Shown: positions 8,288-21,467 of the stretch, in pieces
Layout: every line of letters begins with the position of its first letter
How positions within the stretch are numbered: the first letter of the stretch is position 1
DNA from: a virus
Direction: 5' to 3' (one strand)
DNA: 24,747 nt
Virus record (IMG/VR): IMGVR_UViG_3300025151_000289
Coordinates: 1-24,747 of that record
Notes under the pieces: generated by a model
Seen by the model: the letters and a program-made list of their open reading frames with translations, nothing else
What the model was told of the DNA's origin: nothing
Database searches by the model: none
Position numbers and translations under genes: made by a program

Positions 8288-8534
8288 CAATTCTCCTTTT
8301 AACAGCTTCTGCCCATGCGAAATATGTAGCGGCAGTTTGAATTAGTTCTATAAATAATTTTGTATCATTTTGACCAAAGACTTCTTCTGCGATATCTCCA
8401 TTCTTCTCAGTGGTTAGTATGTTCCACCAAGCATCATCATGATTTTGTTCTCCAAACAATTTATCTTGTCGTTCTCGTTCTCCTAGAATCGATTCTAATA
8501 CTACGGCTCTAGAAGGTATTTTATTCTTCTTCAT
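8280..8534 (-). CDS. MazG-like nucleotide pyrophosphohydrolase-related protein
   Basis: This 84-residue protein resembles small phage proteins of the MazG/all-alpha NTP pyrophosphohydrolase group. The recognisable pattern is ERERQDKLFGEQNHDDAWWNIL, then TTEKNGDIAEEV, then FIELIQTAATYFAWAEAV. In the family, acidic residues on the first helix (usually EExGE) and an E-x-x-Q/D on the second bind magnesium. Here the first motif is altered to E43-K-N-G-D47, so activity is uncertain. Such enzymes clear non-canonical or alarmone nucleotides. It overlaps the 72-residue gene before it and the RecA-like gene after it by a few bases, indicating coupled translation. Confidence 0.7.
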   Translation of the reverse strand: MKKNKIPSRAVVLESILGERERQDKLFGEQNHDDAWWNILTTEKNGDIAEEVFGQNDTKLFIELIQTAATYFAWAEAVKRRIDG

Positions 8535-8739
8535 TTAACATAGCCTCTATCTGTGTGTCTACCTTGCCTTTTATAAACTCCCAGACTATATCAGCTACTT
8601 TTTTAGAATCTTCCAATTGGGCTTCTATTGGTAGTTCGGTATCTATCTGATCTACAGATAGGTCTACTCTCCCATATTGATTTTGTTCTAATGGACCTAC
8701 CCGAAAGGTGTATCCGATGTGTGCACTTACTTTTGCCAT
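8521..8739 (-). CDS. Small hypothetical protein, first gene of the recombination operon
   Basis: This 72-residue acidic protein is unrecognised. It begins with a strand-like half (KVSAHIGYTFRV) and ends in an acidic helix (residues about 45-72, ending NEEE). The ATG at 8739 has a well-placed AAGGAG at 8748-8753. It is the first gene after the predicted promoter at 8817-8845 and the hairpin at 8763-8794, and its end overlaps the MazG-like gene by 14 bases. No membrane segment or signal peptide is visible. As a leading gene of a recombination operon it may be an early or accessory protein, but nothing in the sequence states its function. Confidence 0.7.
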   Translation of the reverse strand: MAKVSAHIGYTFRVGPLEQNQYGRVDLSVDQIDTELPIEAQLEDSKKVADIVWEFIKGKVDTQIEAMLNEEE

Positions 8740-8762
8740 TGTGTTTTCTCCTTATTACAAAC

Positions 8763-8794
8763 CCCCTATCTGAACAGGAATGAAAGATAGGGGG
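8763..8794 (-). terminator. 9-bp hairpin in an operon leader; weak terminator or attenuator
   Basis: GATAGGGGG at 8786-8794 and CCCCCTATC at 8762-8770 are perfect complements and enclose a 15-base loop. On the minus strand the stem is followed by TTTGT, a weak U-tract. It lies between the predicted promoter at 8817-8845 and the ribosome binding site of the 72-residue gene. It could terminate the upstream AIPR-like transcript, attenuate the new one, or protect the 5' end of the message. Confidence 0.6.
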
Positions 8795-8849: not shown

Positions 8850-10010
8850 CTATCTATTAGAATCAACTATCCTAGCACATTCTTGCCACAAACTTTTAGA
8901 TCTAGCCATTGGATTAGGTTTGTTGTCGTGATCTTTACCAATATCTCTAATACAATCTAGTAATTCGTCTAAAGAATCGGCTAGCACTTTCTTTACTTTA
9001 GGAAAAGACCTGTCCCAAGCTAACTCGTTTGGGTCTACCACACTTCTAAATCCTGATAACACAGGCTTAACTAGCCCAGCTACAAGAGTTGATTTAGAAT
9101 TTTTCCCCAAGATAGGTAACTGTACTTCTGTTTTAGTGTCAATCCAACCAACTTTGTTCCCCAAAGAATTTTTCTTAGCTATGCCTACTTGAATGATTTC
9201 AGATAACTCTAATATTTCTGGCAACATAGGGAACATTTTTTCATAATGTCCTACATTCTCAGCATATTGAGATAACGTAGCAGCCTTTCCTGTATAAGTT
9301 TGTCTCGGATGCTTAGACTTACCCCACTTATCTTTGTTTAGAGGGTAATTAACTACATCAAGACACATCAGCTTGGAAACAACATCTCCTATTGGAATAG
9401 GTGCTTGTGAGTTCATTTCATACGCTATGTGTTCGGCATATGGGTGAAAGTTTGGAAATCTGCTTGTATCTATCAAAAAATTCTTCAAAGAATCAAAAAC
9501 TCGTTGAGTGTTGTATATAGATGTCTTGTCTACATTAACTTGAACGTTTTTAGCGATAGCTACTTCTTCTCTAGTAGTCTGATCCATACCCTCAATAATT
9601 TGAACCACTACACTTTCGTCAGCAGCCGTGCCTGCATCTACGTTTCGAGTAATCAAATCATAAGTGTGACCACCATTTATAATGCCTTCAGTTAATTCAT
9701 CAATGAAAAGATGGTATAAATTATCCCCTACCTTAGTCACTGATGACACTGCCAAATCAATTCCTCCGTTTTTTAGATGGAACTTGTCAGGGATTCCTTC
9801 TTCGCCCTGAATAGTTCGTTCTAAATTTTTGTATTTACCACCCGAACCTATTCCTAAATCATCACGTGATCTTACGTTTGGTCCATCGGGAAGTCCTTGA
9901 GGGAGCCCAGAAAAGGGCACGATTGCAAAATGAATGTTTTCAGACCCTTTTGCAGATGGTCTTATTCTCCTAATATCATGTACCCGGAGAGGGTATTTTG
10001 TGATAGCCAT
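8850..10010 (-). CDS. AIPR-like protein (abortive infection phage resistance family)
   Basis: This 386-residue protein carries motifs that resemble the AIPR family (Pfam AIPR). DKFHLKNGGIDLA (residues 75-87) matches the family FxxxNNGIT-type motif. GIINGGHTYDLI (109-120) matches the QIVNGxQT-type motif. VVVQIIEGMDQ (134-144) and AIAKNVQVNVDKTS (151-164) match the following strand and N-x-Q segment. Family members were named for lactococcal abortive infection, and their biochemical activity is poorly defined. No nuclease, membrane or signal motif is obvious. The gene has an ideal AAGGAGG ribosome binding site, its own predicted promoter (10089-10117), a palindrome over the predicted start site, and about 100-base gaps on both sides. 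It is therefore the one gene in the window not tightly packed into an operon. An alternative is a phage-specific DNA-binding or replication protein with a convergent NGG motif. Confidence 0.65.
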   Translation of the reverse strand: MAITKYPLRVHDIRRIRPSAKGSENIHFAIVPFSGLPQGLPDGPNVRSRDDLGIGSGGKYKNLERTIQGEEGIPDKFHLKNGGIDLAVSSVTKVGDNLYHLFIDELTEGIINGGHTYDLITRNVDAGTAADESVVVQIIEGMDQTTREEVAIAKNVQVNVDKTSIYNTQRVFDSLKNFLIDTSRFPNFHPYAEHIAYEMNSQAPIPIGDVVSKLMCLDVVNYPLNKDKWGKSKHPRQTYTGKAATLSQYAENVGHYEKMFPMLPEILELSEIIQVGIAKKNSLGNKVGWIDTKTEVQLPILGKNSKSTLVAGLVKPVLSGFRSVVDPNELAWDRSFPKVKKVLADSLDELLDCIRDIGKDHDNKPNPMARSKSLWQECARIVDSNR

Positions 10011-10067
10011 AAGTTCCTCCTTATGAGCTTCAATTTTCTTGTGTTGACCTTTCGGGTCTAACCAAGA

Positions 10068-10083
10068 TGTAACAAATGTTACA
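10068..10083 (-). promoter_or_regulatory. Operator-like palindrome at the AIPR-like gene promoter
   Basis: Two perfect 7-base arms, TGTAACA and TGTTACA, flank a two-base centre. The site starts five bases after the -10 box and covers the expected transcription start. That is the classic position for a repressor operator. Just downstream, GACCTTTCGGGTC (10046-10058) could form a 4-bp hairpin in the leader. No binding protein can be named; the helix-turn-helix gene at 16668-17066 is one candidate. Confidence 0.55.
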
Positions 10084-10088
10084 ATTTT

Positions 10089-10117
10089 ATTATACTAAAA
10101 GAATTTAAAATTTGCAA
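10089..10117 (-). promoter_or_regulatory. Predicted sigma-70-type promoter for the AIPR-like gene
   Basis: On the minus strand TTGCAA (10117-10112, 4 of 6 to TTGACA) and a perfect TATAAT (10094-10089) are separated by 17 bases within an AT-rich stretch. The -35 box falls in the last codons of the PD-(D/E)XK nuclease gene. The predicted start near 10082 lies inside the palindrome at 10068-10083 and gives a leader of about 70 bases. Confidence 0.65.
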
Positions 10118-10626
10118 ATCAGCTTTGATATCGGTAGGTTCCACATGTCTACTAAGGTAGTAAATTCATTAGAAGTATCTACATCGCCCTTCTTCCAGAG
10201 AGCAGCTTCCTCAAAGTACTGTTTAGCGTCTTTCTTACCCAACAACCAAATGTTCTTTAGCCCCCTGTAAGCTTTTGCCCCATCCTTTTTTATCGATTCG
10301 TTAAATTCTAGGCTAATAAAAATATAGGTATCAGGGCGTTGGTGGGTACTTGTAGAGGCAACGGATACGTCATAATAATCTCTAGGAGCTACTGTTCTTC
10401 TTTTAGTTTTTACCTCTATACATTCTCCATTAAGGAATATGTCATAATCAAACTTCTCGTCAGATTCTACTATCTCTGCTCCAAGATATTCTTTTATAGC
10501 TTCTTCTCCTAAGAACCCTGCTAAGTTACCTGCCCCACGAGTGATTGAATTGCGTATTTCACCCATTTGATCAGCTCGAACCTTAGCTCTATCAATCATT
10601 TCTTGTGTGTGAGGTATTATTATCAT
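10105..10626 (-). CDS. PD-(D/E)XK family nuclease
   Basis: This 173-residue protein has a restriction-endonuclease-like core. A GNLAGFLGEEAIKEYLG helix (residues 33-49) is typical of the N-terminal helix of such folds. It is followed by FDYDIFLNG with D62 and CIEVKTKRR with E71 and K73, a clear D...ExK catalytic pattern. The C-terminal half has strands and a KNIWLLGKKDAKQYF segment. It would cut DNA with magnesium, probably in phage replication, recombination or host DNA breakdown. It overlaps the DUF3310-like gene by four bases and its last codons hold the -35 box of the next promoter. Confidence 0.75.
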   Translation of the reverse strand: MIIIPHTQEMIDRAKVRADQMGEIRNSITRGAGNLAGFLGEEAIKEYLGAEIVESDEKFDYDIFLNGECIEVKTKRRTVAPRDYYDVSVASTSTHQRPDTYIFISLEFNESIKKDGAKAYRGLKNIWLLGKKDAKQYFEEAALWKKGDVDTSNEFTTLVDMWNLPISKLICKF

Positions 10627-10880
10627 TTAATATTCTGGTCGTTAAAATGTAGTAACAGCATAGCGTAATGAATAATCTTGAAAATGTCTTTACGAGGTGT
10701 TCCTTTTTTATCATAACGAGATGCATACTTTAAAATATTGCTCCTACAGAACGCCTCGGCATCTCCACACGCTGCTATAAAGTCCAAGGTCTGCACTTCA
10801 CCCTCACTATAATGTTCTCCATATGTATTTTTTACATACTCGGCGATTTCTTTTAGTATTTCTTCTTCGTTATATTTCAT
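10623..10880 (-). CDS. DUF3310-like small phage protein
   Basis: This 85-residue protein resembles DUF3310-type phage proteins. The telling segment is QTLDFIAACGDAEAFCRSN followed by ILKYASRYDKKGTPRKD and a hydrophobic helix HYAMLLL. In the family this is a short helical domain with an invariant N-x-x-KY-x-x-R-x-x-KK-G region. The family's function is not established, but it is often found near DNA metabolism genes. Here it directly follows the DNA polymerase gene (one-base gap) and overlaps the nuclease gene by four bases. Confidence 0.65.
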   Translation of the reverse strand: MKYNEEEILKEIAEYVKNTYGEHYSEGEVQTLDFIAACGDAEAFCRSNILKYASRYDKKGTPRKDIFKIIHYAMLLLHFNDQNIK

Positions 10881-15887: not shown

Positions 15888-16122
15888 CTTTATCGTTCTC
15901 CTTTGTGTAAAGCACTCTATTTTTATCAGAATATACTAAATAGTCTACTTCAGAAACAGGTAACGTGTCAACTTCTTGTTTCGCATCTTCAAAGGTTGAG
16001 TACTCCCCATGAGTCCAGAAATCTCCATTGTGCCCATGAGCAATAATTCTAAACCTATTTTCAATTTTTTTATTTTTTGGTTTTTGTATTAACCGCCCTG
16101 TCCTTCTCATCCTTCTAGGCAT
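15880..16122 (-). CDS. Small hypothetical protein between sigma factor and helicase
   Basis: This 80-residue protein is not recognised. It begins with a very basic segment (MPRRMRRTGRLIQKPKNKK), then a compact strand-and-helix part (FRIIAHGHNGDFW, YSTFEDAKQEVD, VDYLVYSDKNRVLYTKE). I placed the start at ATG 16122 because it overlaps the sigma factor stop as ATGCCTAG, in the style of this genome; a longer form would begin at 16158. The basic N-terminus could bind nucleic acid. Its place between a sigma factor and the helicase gives no firm clue. Confidence 0.6.
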   Translation of the reverse strand: MPRRMRRTGRLIQKPKNKKIENRFRIIAHGHNGDFWTHGEYSTFEDAKQEVDTLPVSEVDYLVYSDKNRVLYTKENDKDG

Positions 16123-16684
16123 AATCTTCTGTATCACTTTCTTCCAAAACAATATCATTCATCTCAGAGATATCTAAAGACTTAATTTGTAATTTATCCC
16201 TAAGACCTTGTCTAACTTTATACGCAGACTCACCCAAATCTTCTGTAATTTCTTCCATAGTTAATCCTTCTAACTTTAATTGCAAAAAAAGTTTTTCTTT
16301 ATTATCTAGGTTTTGAGAATCTACCCATAAATTTATATCCACTTCATCTTGATAACGATTTGGATCAATAATCGCTTTCAGCACATTTTCAGGAATCGTC
16401 TCATATAGGTCTACTAGATCAATACTTGTAGCAGTATTAGTCTTTAAATTACGTTTAGCTTTGTTTATTAGGGTTCTAATAGTATTAACTAGTGCTGTGT
16501 GTAGGTACGTGTGAAAGATAGCTCCTTTTTCATTGTCAGGATCAAAAGCTTTCGCGGCTTTTACAAGGGCTATTCGCAATTCTTGGGCAATGTCTTCGTT
16601 ATCAAGCCCTACGATCTCTGCTGAATAGACCATTTTTTGTATCTTAGGTTCCCATTGGGTTATTAAATCATCGTTTATATCCAT
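16115..16684 (-). CDS. Sigma-70-like RNA polymerase sigma factor
   Basis: This protein (189 residues from ATG 16684) would redirect host RNA polymerase to phage promoters. A region 2-like segment spans DNEDIAQELRIALVKAAKAF to ALVNTIRTLINKAKRN, with the YLHTALVNTIR helix that resembles the core-binding and -10 recognition part of sigma-70 proteins. A region 4-like helix-turn-helix follows: NKEKLFLQLKLEGLTMEEITEDLG and YKVRQGLRDKL. The linker is typical of short phage or ECF-like sigma factors. Longer starts (GTG 16741, ATG 16735) are open but would overlap the upstream gene by up to 74 bases; none has a convincing ribosome binding site. It sits between the tail genes and the replication operon, next to another DNA-binding protein. 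Confidence 0.75.
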   Translation of the reverse strand: MDINDDLITQWEPKIQKMVYSAEIVGLDNEDIAQELRIALVKAAKAFDPDNEKGAIFHTYLHTALVNTIRTLINKAKRNLKTNTATSIDLVDLYETIPENVLKAIIDPNRYQDEVDINLWVDSQNLDNKEKLFLQLKLEGLTMEEITEDLGESAYKVRQGLRDKLQIKSLDISEMNDIVLEESDTEDYA

Positions 16685-17066
16685 ACAATCTGCGTTCAGT
16701 ATGATAGCATTCTCCACTACAATACATTCTATCATATCCACGATTATATTTCTGTACTATTTGAGATCGTTTTCTGTAGAATGGGACTCTACAATAATGG
16801 CAATTTACTTTGATGTTATAATATTGGAAATGGCATGAGCCATCATGTACTAATTTTGTACTTAACTCGCCACATATTTTACAATGACGAGCATCTTTCA
16901 TTCTTTTGGCTCTTAAACTAGGAACATTGTTCTGTTTCAGTACTTTATATATATACTGTCTAGATACTTTAAACGCATTTCCTATTTGTTGAAGAGTGTC
17001 GTGAGGATTATCGTATCTATGTTGTATGATTTTAGAAGTCTGAGACTGACGTTTGCTGTTTTTCAT
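16668..17066 (-). CDS. Helix-turn-helix plus zinc-finger DNA-binding protein
   Basis: This 132-residue protein joins two DNA-binding parts. Residues 24-47 form a helix-turn-helix (LQQIGNAFKVSRQYIYKVLK). The rest holds paired cysteines suited to zinc: C62/C65, H74/C78, C89/C92 and C116/C120, in a very basic background ending RRLYGYKR. The C89-C120 part resembles the Cys-rich finger that ends FCSxxC in some phage HNH-like and regulator proteins, but no HNH catalytic His-Asn-His is seen. It overlaps the small gene before it by 35 bases and the sigma factor after it. A transcription regulator is the most likely role. Confidence 0.7.
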   Translation of the reverse strand: MKNSKRQSQTSKIIQHRYDNPHDTLQQIGNAFKVSRQYIYKVLKQNNVPSLRAKRMKDARHCKICGELSTKLVHDGSCHFQYYNIKVNCHYCRVPFYRKRSQIVQKYNRGYDRMYCSGECYHTERRLYGYKR

Positions 17067-17223
17067 ACTCTTTTACTTGCCCAGAAATTTGAGATTTCCA
17101 TTTATTTGCTAGGTACGCTTCATCAACATTCCCGGATTCTCCGGGTCCATTTTTTATCCACGACGAAGCAGCAACTACTCTAGCCCATTGTGCATCTGTA
17201 AATGATACTGTTATGTCTGGCAT
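17032..17223 (-). CDS. Small hypothetical protein after tail fibre
   Basis: This 63-residue protein is not assigned. It reads as a strand followed by helices (ITVSFTDAQWARVVAAS, then VDEAYLANKWKSQISGQVKEYEKQQ). Short proteins of this look, with a T-x-x-x-W-x-R-V-x-A-A segment, are common next to tail genes in phages. Its ATG overlaps the tail fibre stop as TAATG, so translation is coupled. It may be a tail accessory protein, but this is from position only. Confidence 0.65.
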   Translation of the reverse strand: MPDITVSFTDAQWARVVAASSWIKNGPGESGNVDEAYLANKWKSQISGQVKEYEKQQTSVSDF

Positions 17224-20200
17224 TATTTATCCTCCTTCAGTTCTTTTATTTCGTCTTTTAATTTTTTCATCTCCGATAATAATAATACAGATAACATTTG
17301 ATAATCAACCGAATCTGCTTGCCCCTCTTTATTATGCGTAACTATCTCTGGAAAATATTTATCTACTTCTTCAGCAATTAATCCAAAGTTTTCTACTTTG
17401 GTGTCTTTAGAAGTGTAGTTAACTGGGCGTAAATCATATACATGACTTGTATCTATTTCTAAATTTCTAATATTTTCTTTATATCTTTTTGATGATGTGA
17501 TTCTATAAAACCTGTTTGGTGATGATCCTGTTACATCAATGTAGACAGCTTGCATTCCACCAGTACCCGAACTTGAAGCTAGTCCTGCGGTAATTCCCAT
17601 AGAATTTAGTGTAAGTCTTAGACCAGTAGAGCCACCAGAGGGACCAGTGTAAAAATTTATATCACCATCAGTAGTGCCATTAATATAATTTAAGGTATTA
17701 GTTCCCCAAGTGTATCCCACTCTTGTATAATAAAACCCACTATCATCTATATAAGCCTGAGCCGTCCCATCTGCAGCAAATCCTAGGGAGTCTGTCCCAA
17801 CTCTATACATTCCTGTATCAGCGTCTGACGTAAATGAGTACGTGGGCGTACCAGCCGTCCCATTATCCCAACGAAAGTCAGCACCAATGCTTCCTATAGT
17901 ACTTCCGCTAGAATCTTTTAGATATAAGTTACTTCCACTAATATATAAAGATCCTTGAACACTACCATTAGTAAATATTAGTTCAGAAGGATCATCACCT
18001 TCACCCATATCGTGTATTTCTATACTTCCATTAGCAACAAACTCAGCATCACCTGAGTAACCAATTTCCTTACCAAAGTTTGCTACTTGATAAAGTGTGT
18101 TACCCGAACCTATAGGAGCATATACACCTAATGTATTTTGGCTATTGTATGTAGTTGCTTGTATATGTCCGAATTTATTGCCACTTGTATCGTCAAACCT
18201 TATTACACTCCCCATACTACCGGGGGCGTTTAATACTTGTAGTCCATTACTTGTTATTTCTACTCTAGCCCCACTAGAAGCAGTTCTAATTGTATTAGAT
18301 ACAGTTAAAGTGGCTTCTAATTTAGCCGCTGTTATAGCATTAGCAATTATTTTGTCTGCTGTTACTGCGTTAGCTTGTATAGTATCAGCCGTAATAGCCC
18401 CCGCAGAGATTACACCAGCTGATATAGTAGCTTCATTACCTGTAAATGGGAATATAGAGGGTGAATCTGATCCATCATCTGAGCTTGCAACCTTTACCAT
18501 ACATAGTAAAACACGATCATCTTTATAAACATCGGTATAATCATTAGTAATTACTAGTGTTGATGAAGCACTATCCCCTACAGATTTATATATATAGTTA
18601 GTTCCAGCAGCTAAAGTTACCTTACCACCAGCAACTGAAGAACTATTCCCTAAACTTGAAGTGCCTGTAGCACTATGTGCAATTGCTTCTGTGTCATCAT
18701 CTGAAAAAGATAGGGTAGCATCGCTGCCAATCGAATCTGTTTGTCCAAATTTTATCTTATTATATTCCCCTGATGTACCAGTAGCTTCAAAACTAATATT
18801 AGATGTCCATGGTTGTATACCTTTTTTAGATAATGTAGCTGTCATTGTGTTATTAGAGATTGTTGCAAACCCTTCTAACACACTAGGAACAAAGTTTTTT
18901 ACTTTAACTCTCATAGTAAATACTGCTTCGCCTGAAGAATATTTACATTCAGCTATAATTTTATAGTCTTCAGGGTCTCCACTAGTTACTGTAGAAGCAT
19001 AACTTGATGCTTGTATAGTTCGTAGATTACTTTCTCCCTTTATATAGTAAACATAGTAAAGCCTACCGTCAGAGTTCATATCCCCATTAAGACCATACGT
19101 AGCATCATCTGTAGAATCTGCAGCTATATTATACTTTTTATCCCCTATATACAATTTACCAGAGGCTGTAGAACCTGCAGAACCATTCCATTTTACTTTC
19201 CCCGCTCCATTACTAGCAAACTCTAAATCAGTTGATATATTTGGATCTTGTGTTAATGGTGCTGCTATTGGAAGATTTACTTCTTCTGACATAGAATCCG
19301 CCATAGCTGCCGCAAAGTTTTTCTTTTCGTGTCCACCTTCTCTAGCTGTCTCAGCTCCTACTAATGAATAGTTAGAACTAGAAACCCCATTGTCTTCTGA
19401 GTACTTAATTTTAGTTACTAACATGTTAATATTAAGATTAGATAAATCATTTCGTACTTTTACTATATCTCCAGCTCTAACTGGAACATAATAACGTAAT
19501 GTGTCTGATGCAGATATACTACCTGTCATATAAGAACTTACAGTCGTACTAGTTACTTCTTTTATATACCCATAAGTACTTGTTGGCTGACTATTAGAAT
19601 CTAATTTCATTACAACCATACCTTTATGTATTCCATATGATTGTGGATTTACACTACTACTTAAAGTTATCACGTAAGGATTAGCTAAATTAGCATTCGT
19701 ACCCGACACTCCACTAGGACTATTATCAATATAAAAATGAGTAGGTTCATATGTTCCTATATCTGCTCGTACTTGAGTTGTAGTTTGTCTTTGTAGTTTA
19801 GCAACTATTTTCTCTCTTAAAGCATCTCCACTTGCTTCAGCACCCACCGCCATATTTAAACTTCTGTGAACCCCCATGGTTTTTCTAACCCTACTTCTAA
19901 GTTTAAAGTTAGAACCTGTGGTTGTTTGACCAACCCAAACTAAACTATCTGTGCCTGTTTGCCAAATGTGGTCGTTTTCAAGTATGTTTTTATCTATATC
20001 AGATAATAATATATAAGCTGTATCACTTGATCCTACAGTGCCTGTATCACTTAAGTATTGAATTCTTGCTACATCTCTTGCATAAAGTGTTTGACCTGAT
20101 GAATGTGGAGTAGCTTGTGTTGCTGAAGTTACATCATGAGGAGCAATATCATGCCCTCTATTTAACTCGACTTCAGTAGAACTAGTAATAGAGTCTACTG

Positions 20201-21467
20201 TAAAAAATTCTGTTGCTCCTGAACCACTGCTTTGCGTAGTTTCTAATACTTGCCCCGGATACATTCCGGCAGTACTTCCAACAGTAAAAGTTTTTTCTGT
20301 AAGACCTGTAGTTGTTGCTGTCAACGTTGTTAAAGCTACTTTTAGATATTCAGCACTATCTGTACCCGCTACATCCCCACCAATATTTTTACCTGTAAAC
20401 ACAAAACTAGAACCATTAGTAACTGTGTGTACTCCTACTAATTCAAACGTTGAATCTTTAGTGCTTGCAACAGTATCACCATTTGGGGCTATATTATTTT
20501 CAACGTGGGTTAATACTACTTCTGTAAATATTTCATTTTTAGGTCTAGTAATATCATGTGAAGTCATTAAGTGACGCTGACCCGTATCAGAAAAAGCTCC
20601 TGAACTGCTTGTGTCTGGTGATGGTAGGTCTATACTTAAACCATATGTTCCCGGTTGAGTTGCTGGTCTTGTACCTCTTTTAAAATAATTAAAATAAGCT
20701 TGAGGCTTTTCAGCTGCCGAAGGAGCTTCTTGATAGTTTGCGTCTAAATAATAATCATACCCAAATTCTTGCCCAGCAGAAACCGCATTGTGTGGATCTT
20801 CAGCACCTAAATTTTGAATATGTGTTAGAACAGATTTAATACCCCTGCTGTTAAGCTTATATATAAAAGATTCTTTATACTTTTGAGTAGATTCTACGAA
20901 TCTAGAGTCAGAAGAGTTTGCATCCCCCGGATGTTCAACGTTTTCAGTATTCTGGGTTAGCAAAGATTTTATAATGCCTCCTCTAGAACTTACAAGTGTA
21001 TCCCACCATTCATGTTCAGTGTCTTTAGAATCGGTGTTTTGTACGGAATCGTATAAATTTGCACTAGTATCAACTCTATAGTTATAGGCTCCTTTTGTAG
21101 TGTTATCTTTTAATTCCATCAAATAATCCACAGCATCAACTCTTAAGATCATTCCTTGACTTTGATCAAATTCTTCTGATGTTCCTGTCACAACACCATA
21201 AAAAATAACCCTGTATGAAGAACCATCTCTTATTTTTATGGGCGTAAAGTCTCCTAAAACTCCTGTAAAAGGACCTTTAGAGCCCGAACCGCTGTTAGAA
21301 AAAGGATTACTAGATTGATTAGAAATCTTTATATGGGCTGTTTGCGGAGCGTGTAAATGATCGTCTATGGTGAGCCCACGAATAGCTGTAGTAGAAGTGC
21401 CTGATATATTCATATCAACCCACGCACTCCCATTCCAATATGATATTATGGCACGTGAGGAAGGCAT
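17223..21467 (-). CDS. Tail hub/fibre protein with C-terminal S74 self-cleaving chaperone
   Basis: This 1414-residue protein is the largest gene. Residues 1-125 and about 660-710 resemble baseplate hub-type domains (DFTPIKIRDGSSYRVIFYG; AGDIVKVRNDLSNLNINM). Around 1010-1055 a repeat-like collar (SAGAITADTIQANAVTADK) matches the stalk of host-specificity proteins such as lambda gpJ. Beta-rich fibre sequence follows. The last 90 residues form an S74 intramolecular chaperone: SSKRYK gives S1325 and K1330, the Ser-Lys pair with five-residue spacing seen in endosialidase, followed by FGLIAEEVDKYFPEIV and a coiled coil. The chaperone trimerises the fibre and then cuts itself off before S1325. It is the probable receptor-binding tip. 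Start overlaps the preceding stop at 21467. Confidence 0.85.
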   Translation of the reverse strand: MPSSRAIISYWNGSAWVDMNISGTSTTAIRGLTIDDHLHAPQTAHIKISNQSSNPFSNSGSGSKGPFTGVLGDFTPIKIRDGSSYRVIFYGVVTGTSEEFDQSQGMILRVDAVDYLMELKDNTTKGAYNYRVDTSANLYDSVQNTDSKDTEHEWWDTLVSSRGGIIKSLLTQNTENVEHPGDANSSDSRFVESTQKYKESFIYKLNSRGIKSVLTHIQNLGAEDPHNAVSAGQEFGYDYYLDANYQEAPSAAEKPQAYFNYFKRGTRPATQPGTYGLSIDLPSPDTSSSGAFSDTGQRHLMTSHDITRPKNEIFTEVVLTHVENNIAPNGDTVASTKDSTFELVGVHTVTNGSSFVFTGKNIGGDVAGTDSAEYLKVALTTLTATTTGLTEKTFTVGSTAGMYPGQVLETTQSSGSGATEFFTVDSITSSTEVELNRGHDIAPHDVTSATQATPHSSGQTLYARDVARIQYLSDTGTVGSSDTAYILLSDIDKNILENDHIWQTGTDSLVWVGQTTTGSNFKLRSRVRKTMGVHRSLNMAVGAEASGDALREKIVAKLQRQTTTQVRADIGTYEPTHFYIDNSPSGVSGTNANLANPYVITLSSSVNPQSYGIHKGMVVMKLDSNSQPTSTYGYIKEVTSTTVSSYMTGSISASDTLRYYVPVRAGDIVKVRNDLSNLNINMLVTKIKYSEDNGVSSSNYSLVGAETAREGGHEKKNFAAAMADSMSEEVNLPIAAPLTQDPNISTDLEFASNGAGKVKWNGSAGSTASGKLYIGDKKYNIAADSTDDATYGLNGDMNSDGRLYYVYYIKGESNLRTIQASSYASTVTSGDPEDYKIIAECKYSSGEAVFTMRVKVKNFVPSVLEGFATISNNTMTATLSKKGIQPWTSNISFEATGTSGEYNKIKFGQTDSIGSDATLSFSDDDTEAIAHSATGTSSLGNSSSVAGGKVTLAAGTNYIYKSVGDSASSTLVITNDYTDVYKDDRVLLCMVKVASSDDGSDSPSIFPFTGNEATISAGVISAGAITADTIQANAVTADKIIANAITAAKLEATLTVSNTIRTASSGARVEITSNGLQVLNAPGSMGSVIRFDDTSGNKFGHIQATTYNSQNTLGVYAPIGSGNTLYQVANFGKEIGYSGDAEFVANGSIEIHDMGEGDDPSELIFTNGSVQGSLYISGSNLYLKDSSGSTIGSIGADFRWDNGTAGTPTYSFTSDADTGMYRVGTDSLGFAADGTAQAYIDDSGFYYTRVGYTWGTNTLNYINGTTDGDINFYTGPSGGSTGLRLTLNSMGITAGLASSSGTGGMQAVYIDVTGSSPNRFYRITSSKRYKENIRNLEIDTSHVYDLRPVNYTSKDTKVENFGLIAEEVDKYFPEIVTHNKEGQADSVDYQMLSVLLLSEMKKLKDEIKELKEDK

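Follow-up and report, generated by a model that had tools for sequence, protein, structure and literature searches.

A short AIPR gene as optional phage cargo, exchanged as an allele together with its palindromic leader

The DNA analysed here, referred to as the window, is a stretch of 24,747 nucleotides from a virus record. An open reading frame on its minus strand at positions 8850 to 10010 encodes a protein of 386 residues with the motifs KNGGI (residues 80-84), INGGHT (111-116) and KNVQVNVD (154-161); the length, both glycine motifs and the N-x-Q segment named in the original prediction are all present. The gene is flanked by the two largest gaps of the window, 110 bp and 94 bp, compared to 33 bp for the next largest and a median of 0, which bears out the earlier remark on gaps on both sides in a tightly packed genome. 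The features of the locus are as follows, with relatives cited by their locus numbers (L).

8521 to 8739, minus strand: gene for a 72-residue protein, one border of a variable slot and start of the RecA/nuclease operon (comparison of relatives)
8762 to 8794, minus strand: GC-rich hairpin CCCCCTATC...GATAGGGGG 3' of the AIPR gene, terminator-like with a weak T tract, covarying in all alleles
8850 to 10010, minus strand: short AIPR gene, 386 residues, predicted ParB/DndB-like fold (Pfam, model, motifs)
10008 to 10025, minus strand: possible hairpin III, with the Shine-Dalgarno sequence (10016-10022) in the loop and the start codon in the stem; not present in L002
10038 to 10066, minus strand: hairpin II, CTTGGTTAGACC-CGAAA-GGTCAACACAAG, showing two double compensatory changes when the window is compared with L003
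10068 to 10083, minus strand: palindrome or hairpin I, TGTAACAAATGTTACA (TGTAAC-N4-GTTACA), perfect, covarying between alleles
10089 to 10094, minus strand: -10 box TATAAT, invariant in 10 of 10 aligned sequences
10112 to 10117, minus strand: -35 box TTGCAA, within the 3'-terminal part of the upstream gene; TTGACA in L021 and L076
10105 to 10626, minus strand: neighbouring gene, 173 residues, with a PD-(D/E)XK-like motif D..ExK (motif only)
10623 to 10880, minus strand: DUF3310 gene, the other border of the variable slot (Pfam)

In the Pfam-A search, the open reading frame matched the AIPR family (PF10592) with an E-value of 3.2e-14 and 53.8 bits compared to a curated cut-off of 25, and the six-frame search of the record agrees with this. 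The likeness to AIPR that had been claimed from the motifs alone is thereby confirmed. All 67 short AIPRs in our alignment also match the family at E <= 0.001. The phage product is a true AIPR protein of the short form of about 400 residues. With AbiU it shares the core motifs FHLKNGGI and INGGHT, but the PADLOC model for AbiU gave a weak match which begins only at model position 262 of 537. The phage protein thus corresponds to the second half of AbiU and lacks the N-terminal half of about 260 residues. For long AIPRs, the N-terminal HEPN domain has been presented as a toxin that is predicted to be an RNase (PMC3506569); no HEPN Pfam domain was detected in any of the 67 short AIPRs. A further difference from the AIPR/AbiU systems is that the phage gene is not surrounded by a restriction-modification operon. 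Because the N-terminal half is missing, the abortive-infection label, which the original prediction had associated with the family name, should not be transferred to the phage protein.

Searches of PDB sequences with the phage protein or its profile gave nothing meaningful. AlphaFold yielded a pLDDT of 34 with 7 close relatives and a confident model (mean pLDDT 94.1, pTM 0.86) with 67 diverse sequences. The best PDB structure matches of this model were PadC and the ParB-N domain of a pNOB8-like plasmid, the latter being weak (E 0.016, probability 0.80). In the viral structure library BFVD, the model matched a phage AIPR (E 5.6e-9), a DNA-sulfur-modification (DndB-like) protein (E 7.9e-4) and several GmrSD N-terminal proteins, each with a probability of about 1. 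An hhalign comparison with six DndB proteins places the (D/N)GGHT motif on DGQHR at a P of only 0.0038, and the comparison with ParB gave no meaningful alignment. These matches and the register of the motif agree with the literature, in which a relationship between DndB and AIPR has been noted (PMC3506569; PMC8546572) and GmrS is described as having the ParB/Srx fold and as resembling the DGQHR domain of DndB (PMC4619093). On the best reading of the model, the phage protein belongs to the ParB/Srx-DndB-GmrS superfamily as a member without HEPN, and by analogy with this superfamily it most likely binds nucleic acid. GGHT is invariant in the AIPR alignment, keeping the histidine and having threonine where DGQHR, GERR and GCHR have arginine. 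Due to this exchange, the arginine-bearing nucleotide-site motif is not found in the phage protein, hydrolysis of nucleotides should not be assumed, and the nucleotide site may have been lost. By predicted fold and motif register, DndB would belong to the same superfamily as the phage protein, with a different form of the motif, and unlike at DndB loci no dnd-like genes (dndCDE) were found among the open reading frames of the window that were examined.

The original prediction had proposed a survey of related phages for the presence of the gene at this locus. From IMG/VR, 52 loci were recovered via the RecA-like neighbour and 12 via the 173-residue neighbour, and in 41 contigs both borders of the slot were in view. 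As these are metagenome contigs gathered by matches to neighbouring proteins, the counts describe a sample and not a frequency. Nine of the 41 slots contain AIPR and 32 lack it. In 13 of the latter the slot is empty, with the DUF3310 and 72-residue genes overlapping by 13 bp; this arrangement supports the earlier claim that the AIPR gene stands as a divider between the operons for replication and recombination. The remaining 19 slots hold other genes, comprising relatives of the 173-residue gene in 3 cases and different genes, some with nuclease-like motifs, in 16. No AIPR was found elsewhere in the 19 AIPR-less records that were searched whole, which are possibly fragments. Most other slot occupants overlap or abut their neighbours, and among the contents seen, gaps suited to control elements occur only with AIPR. 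Accordingly, the gene is optional cargo and not a core replication gene, and, as expected for a moron, close relatives lack it at this site. The two outcomes which had been named as speaking against the original prediction, a missing profile match and an invariable presence in relatives, were thus both not observed.

The 173-residue gene accompanies AIPR in 8 of the 9 AIPR-bearing relatives and is also found without it. Its assignment to PD-(D/E)XK has no profile support in Pfam, NCBIfam or PDB. The protein is nearly frozen (97-99% identical) even where the flanks are about 75% identical (L011, L012), which points to a spread by recent exchange. The versions in L039 and L046 are fusions with a second nuclease-like domain.

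The position of AIPR between polymerase and recombinase operons, together with the nuclease-like motifs in other slot occupants, would suit an accessory role in DNA metabolism, in which a ParB/Srx-like nuclease or NTPase acts with the PD-(D/E)XK-like neighbour and RecA in recombination or packaging; proteins of the ParB/Srx fold can be nucleases (PMC4619093). However, AIPR is missing in most of the relatives in which the genes for replication and recombination are retained. Moreover, the gene has a separate promoter, its dN/dS is about tenfold that of recA, and two of its copies are frameshifted, so that we regard such a role as quite unlikely.

The putative promoter on the minus strand comprises the -35 box TTGCAA, a spacer of 17 nt and the -10 box TATAAT, spanning 10117 to 10089. 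The pattern TTGnnA-N17-TATAAT occurs once in the window compared to a chance expectation of 0.24. In L021 and L076, the upstream DNA differs (in L021, the 173-residue gene is absent), yet the promoter is retained as TTGACA...TATAAT, which lends comparative support to a working promoter. At the other end of the gene, all alleles retain the hairpin at 8762-8794, and compensatory changes are seen in it. On the best reading, a sigma-70-type promoter of its own drives the AIPR gene, probably without dependence on the flanking operons, and the earlier claim of an own promoter, a further mark of a moron, holds at the level of conserved -35 and -10 sequences. A distinct base composition, which is another such mark, was not found: the GC content is 0.387 locally and about 0.37 overall. 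The window also encodes a sigma-70-like factor at 16115-16741 on the minus strand (Pfam Sigma70_r2, E 1e-7); in this group of phages, the factor may be responsible for middle or late promoters. Given this phage-encoded region 2 protein, the consensus sigma-70-type promoter of AIPR may mean that it is expressed at another time than other genes.

The palindrome at 10068-10083 begins about 5 nt past the -10 box. A window-wide count of its pattern with two mismatches allowed was not above chance, and the support for it therefore rests on its place and on covariation. With regard to place and arm length, it is unusual for the leader of the window (p about 0.009 in shuffles of the single sequence); the corresponding values were 0.006 for L003, 0.033 for L007 and 0.086 for L011. 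All four allele groups are palindromic at this place, with TGTAGC-N4-GCTACA in L003, ATAGC-N4-GCTAT in L007 and TAGC-N3-GCTA, with a spacer one base shorter, in L011 and L021. Between alleles, two base pairs are altered on both sides. Folding of the leader as RNA gave z-scores of -4.7 for the window, -5.1 for L003, -4.1 for L011 and -1.3 for L007. For leaders of 85 nt, the values were -4.0 (window), -5.8 (L003), -4.5 (L011), -0.3 (L007), -3.5 (L021) and -2.7 (L002), compared to a mean of -0.44 and a minimum of -3.89 for random 85-mers of the window. The leader of L007 is not significantly folded (z from -0.3 to -1.3), and conservation of the leader is clear in three of the four allele groups only. 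An Rfam search with the leader gave no match.

As judged from these sequences, the palindrome may be a DNA operator or, equally, an RNA hairpin. Of the operator-like palindrome described earlier, the perfect and covarying palindrome past the -10 box stands; operator is one of its two readings. If the palindrome acted solely as RNA structure, controlling mRNA stability or translation, the AIPR protein would not regulate itself. The stability of hairpins I and II, with z-scores of -4 to -5.8 in three allele groups, is consistent with this explanation, as are hairpin III, which may hold the start codon, and a second stem-loop predicted in the leaders of all alleles despite their differing sequence. 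Against it stand the location of hairpin I at the expected start of transcription, which is the usual site of a repressor operator, and its exchange along with the protein allele, as described below. DndB, furthermore, represses its own operon by binding to palindromes in the promoter (PMC4507180). Altogether, a purely RNA-based leader has an appreciable, though less than even, chance of being correct. A palindrome at its own promoter is thus a further likeness to DndB; the palindrome of the phage is a different one and its binding by the phage protein is putative.

A comparison of L003 with L007 showed flanks of 97-100% identity over about 5 kb, whereas their AIPR alleles are only about 58% identical and the DNA identity drops to 54-74% from the -10 box to the start of the 72-residue gene. 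The left border of this swap lies just past the -10 box, which indicates that the palindromic leader travels with the AIPR allele and that the promoter stays. The same picture emerges from the synonymous divergence, with a dS of 1.33 for AIPR compared to 0.05-0.07 for the 173-residue gene and recA. An assembly artefact is disfavoured by the origin of the two records in different metagenomes and by the recurrence of the L007 allele in the separate records L009 and L010. These two records have the same kind of backbone, and the data thus comprise one allele swap between near-identical backbones. Conversely, the window and L002 share a recently transferred block of AIPR and the 173-residue gene (dS of 0.14-0.17), set in backbones that are much more diverged (dS of 1.17 for recA). 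While AIPR genes in phages have been annotated before, the exchange of the allele together with its leader is the new part. The separately controlled moron that the original prediction had read from a single sequence is therefore upheld by the Pfam match, the variable slot, the promoter, the leader, the end hairpin and the cassette exchange.

Over all allele pairs, the dN/dS of AIPR amounts to 0.15-0.30 compared to values of up to 0.08 for its neighbours, which indicates that the gene is functional and under purifying selection that is several-fold looser than on the neighbouring genes. Two copies are frameshifted: L004 (L004:5460-5510), where two TTTGA repeats bound a deletion of 8 bp and the copy otherwise has 99.9% identity with that of L002, and L010 by one inserted base, possibly a sequencing error. 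These frameshifts and the optional presence of the gene could be explained by a decaying insertion without function. The selection across the whole allele range, the invariant core motifs and the conserved promoter and hairpins render this explanation highly improbable. Divergence is highest in the C-terminal half of the protein (41-50% for residues 241-386 between the window and L007) and lowest in the GGHT core. Both this distribution and the rapid turnover of alleles, which fits an arms race, could also reflect counter-defence, in which the phage AIPR would be a decoy or dominant-negative partner blocking host defences of the AIPR, DndB or GmrS type and its alleles would track host variants. 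The lack of the AbiU residues that are the HEPN toxin site in long AIPRs (PMC3506569) would suit such an inhibitor.

This explanation has to be weighed against the AIPRs of bacteria. From profile-guided scans, 80 of 190 matching bacterial loci and several more viral short AIPRs were taken, and nearly all short AIPRs in the gathered set comprise 380-440 residues. The bacterial ones are found on plasmids, in one case followed by a Z1 gene, and in restriction islands. A small divergent HTH gene at the AIPR start was counted by motif in 27 of 83 loci, nearly all Gram-positive, and most short AIPRs of Bacillota and bifidobacteria have such an XRE-like gene. The usual presence of a dedicated regulator in these bacteria indicates that tight control is common in the AIPR family. 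The phage gene resembles them in length, motifs and as a free-standing gene under dedicated control, but has its control elements in its own leader instead of an adjacent regulator gene and shares about 21-28% identity. Since bacteria have the same short AIPR free-standing with its own regulator, the phage protein is not a truncated inhibitor copy, and counter-defence appears rather unlikely.

The short AIPR with a divergent XRE-like HTH gene of about 90-110 residues forms a recurrent two-gene module in these bacteria (L103-L142, L161), sometimes on plasmids. It was not flagged by the defence-protein profiles used here and could represent a so far undescribed unit of defence or of a toxin-antitoxin-like kind. 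One candidate phage relative, the INPHARED entry MT838632.1 (L078, 'Bacteriophage sp.'), was dropped, as its genes are those of a bacterial restriction island (Mrr, DpnII, TIR, AIPR); the phage label of this GenBank record is probably wrong.

In the tree, which omits Goe8 and ct8nN1, the AIPRs of the window clade group together (100/99), while those of other phages are spread over three or more further positions, which indicates that phages acquired AIPR more than once. AIPR proteins on phages are also recorded for the Bacillus phage Goe8 (gp148), Podoviridae ct8nN1 and PHROG 1841 ('Abi alpha-like', moron category); in contrast to the present case, the records consulted for these describe neither allele exchange nor a leader. 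A fixed slot with interchangeable cargo, AIPR domains included, was described for the defence hotspots of P2/P4-like phages (PMC9122126). Here, in contrast, alleles of one gene are swapped with their own leader, and this in a group of uncultured phages. With cultured phages, its terminase and polymerase share no more than about 25% identity, so that the group has no close cultured relative in the collection searched. No relative was found in the bacterial genomes scanned with the alignment of the window clade, and hence no host is indicated. The impression from the gene set is that the phage is probably of marine origin. Other genes of the 24.7 kb contig include one for a large ribonucleotide reductase at 755-2716, in which Pfam recognises the barrel and the all-alpha domain, and a structural protein of 1414 residues at 17223-21467 with a terminal Peptidase_S74 (endosialidase chaperone) domain, both on the minus strand.

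Altogether, we consider it probable that the gene is a moron-like cassette, optional and exchangeable, that limits its own expression and serves as a conflict factor. The architecture and the mobility of the cassette are seen directly in the genomes compared. For the remainder, the short AIPR gene, read from its own promoter, is probably transcribed apart from the flanking operons, and the terminator-like hairpin follows it. Its product, being of the ParB/Srx-DndB-GmrS type, would bind nucleic acid, and the most likely limit on its expression is that palindrome and folded leader are recognised in an allele-matched way, by AIPR itself or at the RNA level. Analogy to DndB suggests a protein that, by binding nucleic acid, restricts its own expression via the matched palindrome and leader; this has a nearly even chance. 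A role in conflict with other phages or with host defences is likely on balance, superinfection exclusion being somewhat more likely than counter-defence. A more far-reaching possibility, which we hold to be unlikely, is that AIPR and its folded palindromic leader are allele-specific cognate pairs and that a cassette swap changes the specificity group of the phage. If so, each allele would recognise its own leader, as DNA or RNA, and act on co-infecting phages with another allele or none, which would amount to exclusion based on a protein of the ParB/DndB kind.

Defence islands contain scattered AIPR genes, whose mechanism is poorly known. Phages with nearly the same genome but different AIPR alleles, each with its matching leader, constitute a natural experiment. 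With this phage group, it becomes testable whether AIPR is an autoregulated binder of the DndB/ParB kind, and whether it is used against other phages or against hosts.
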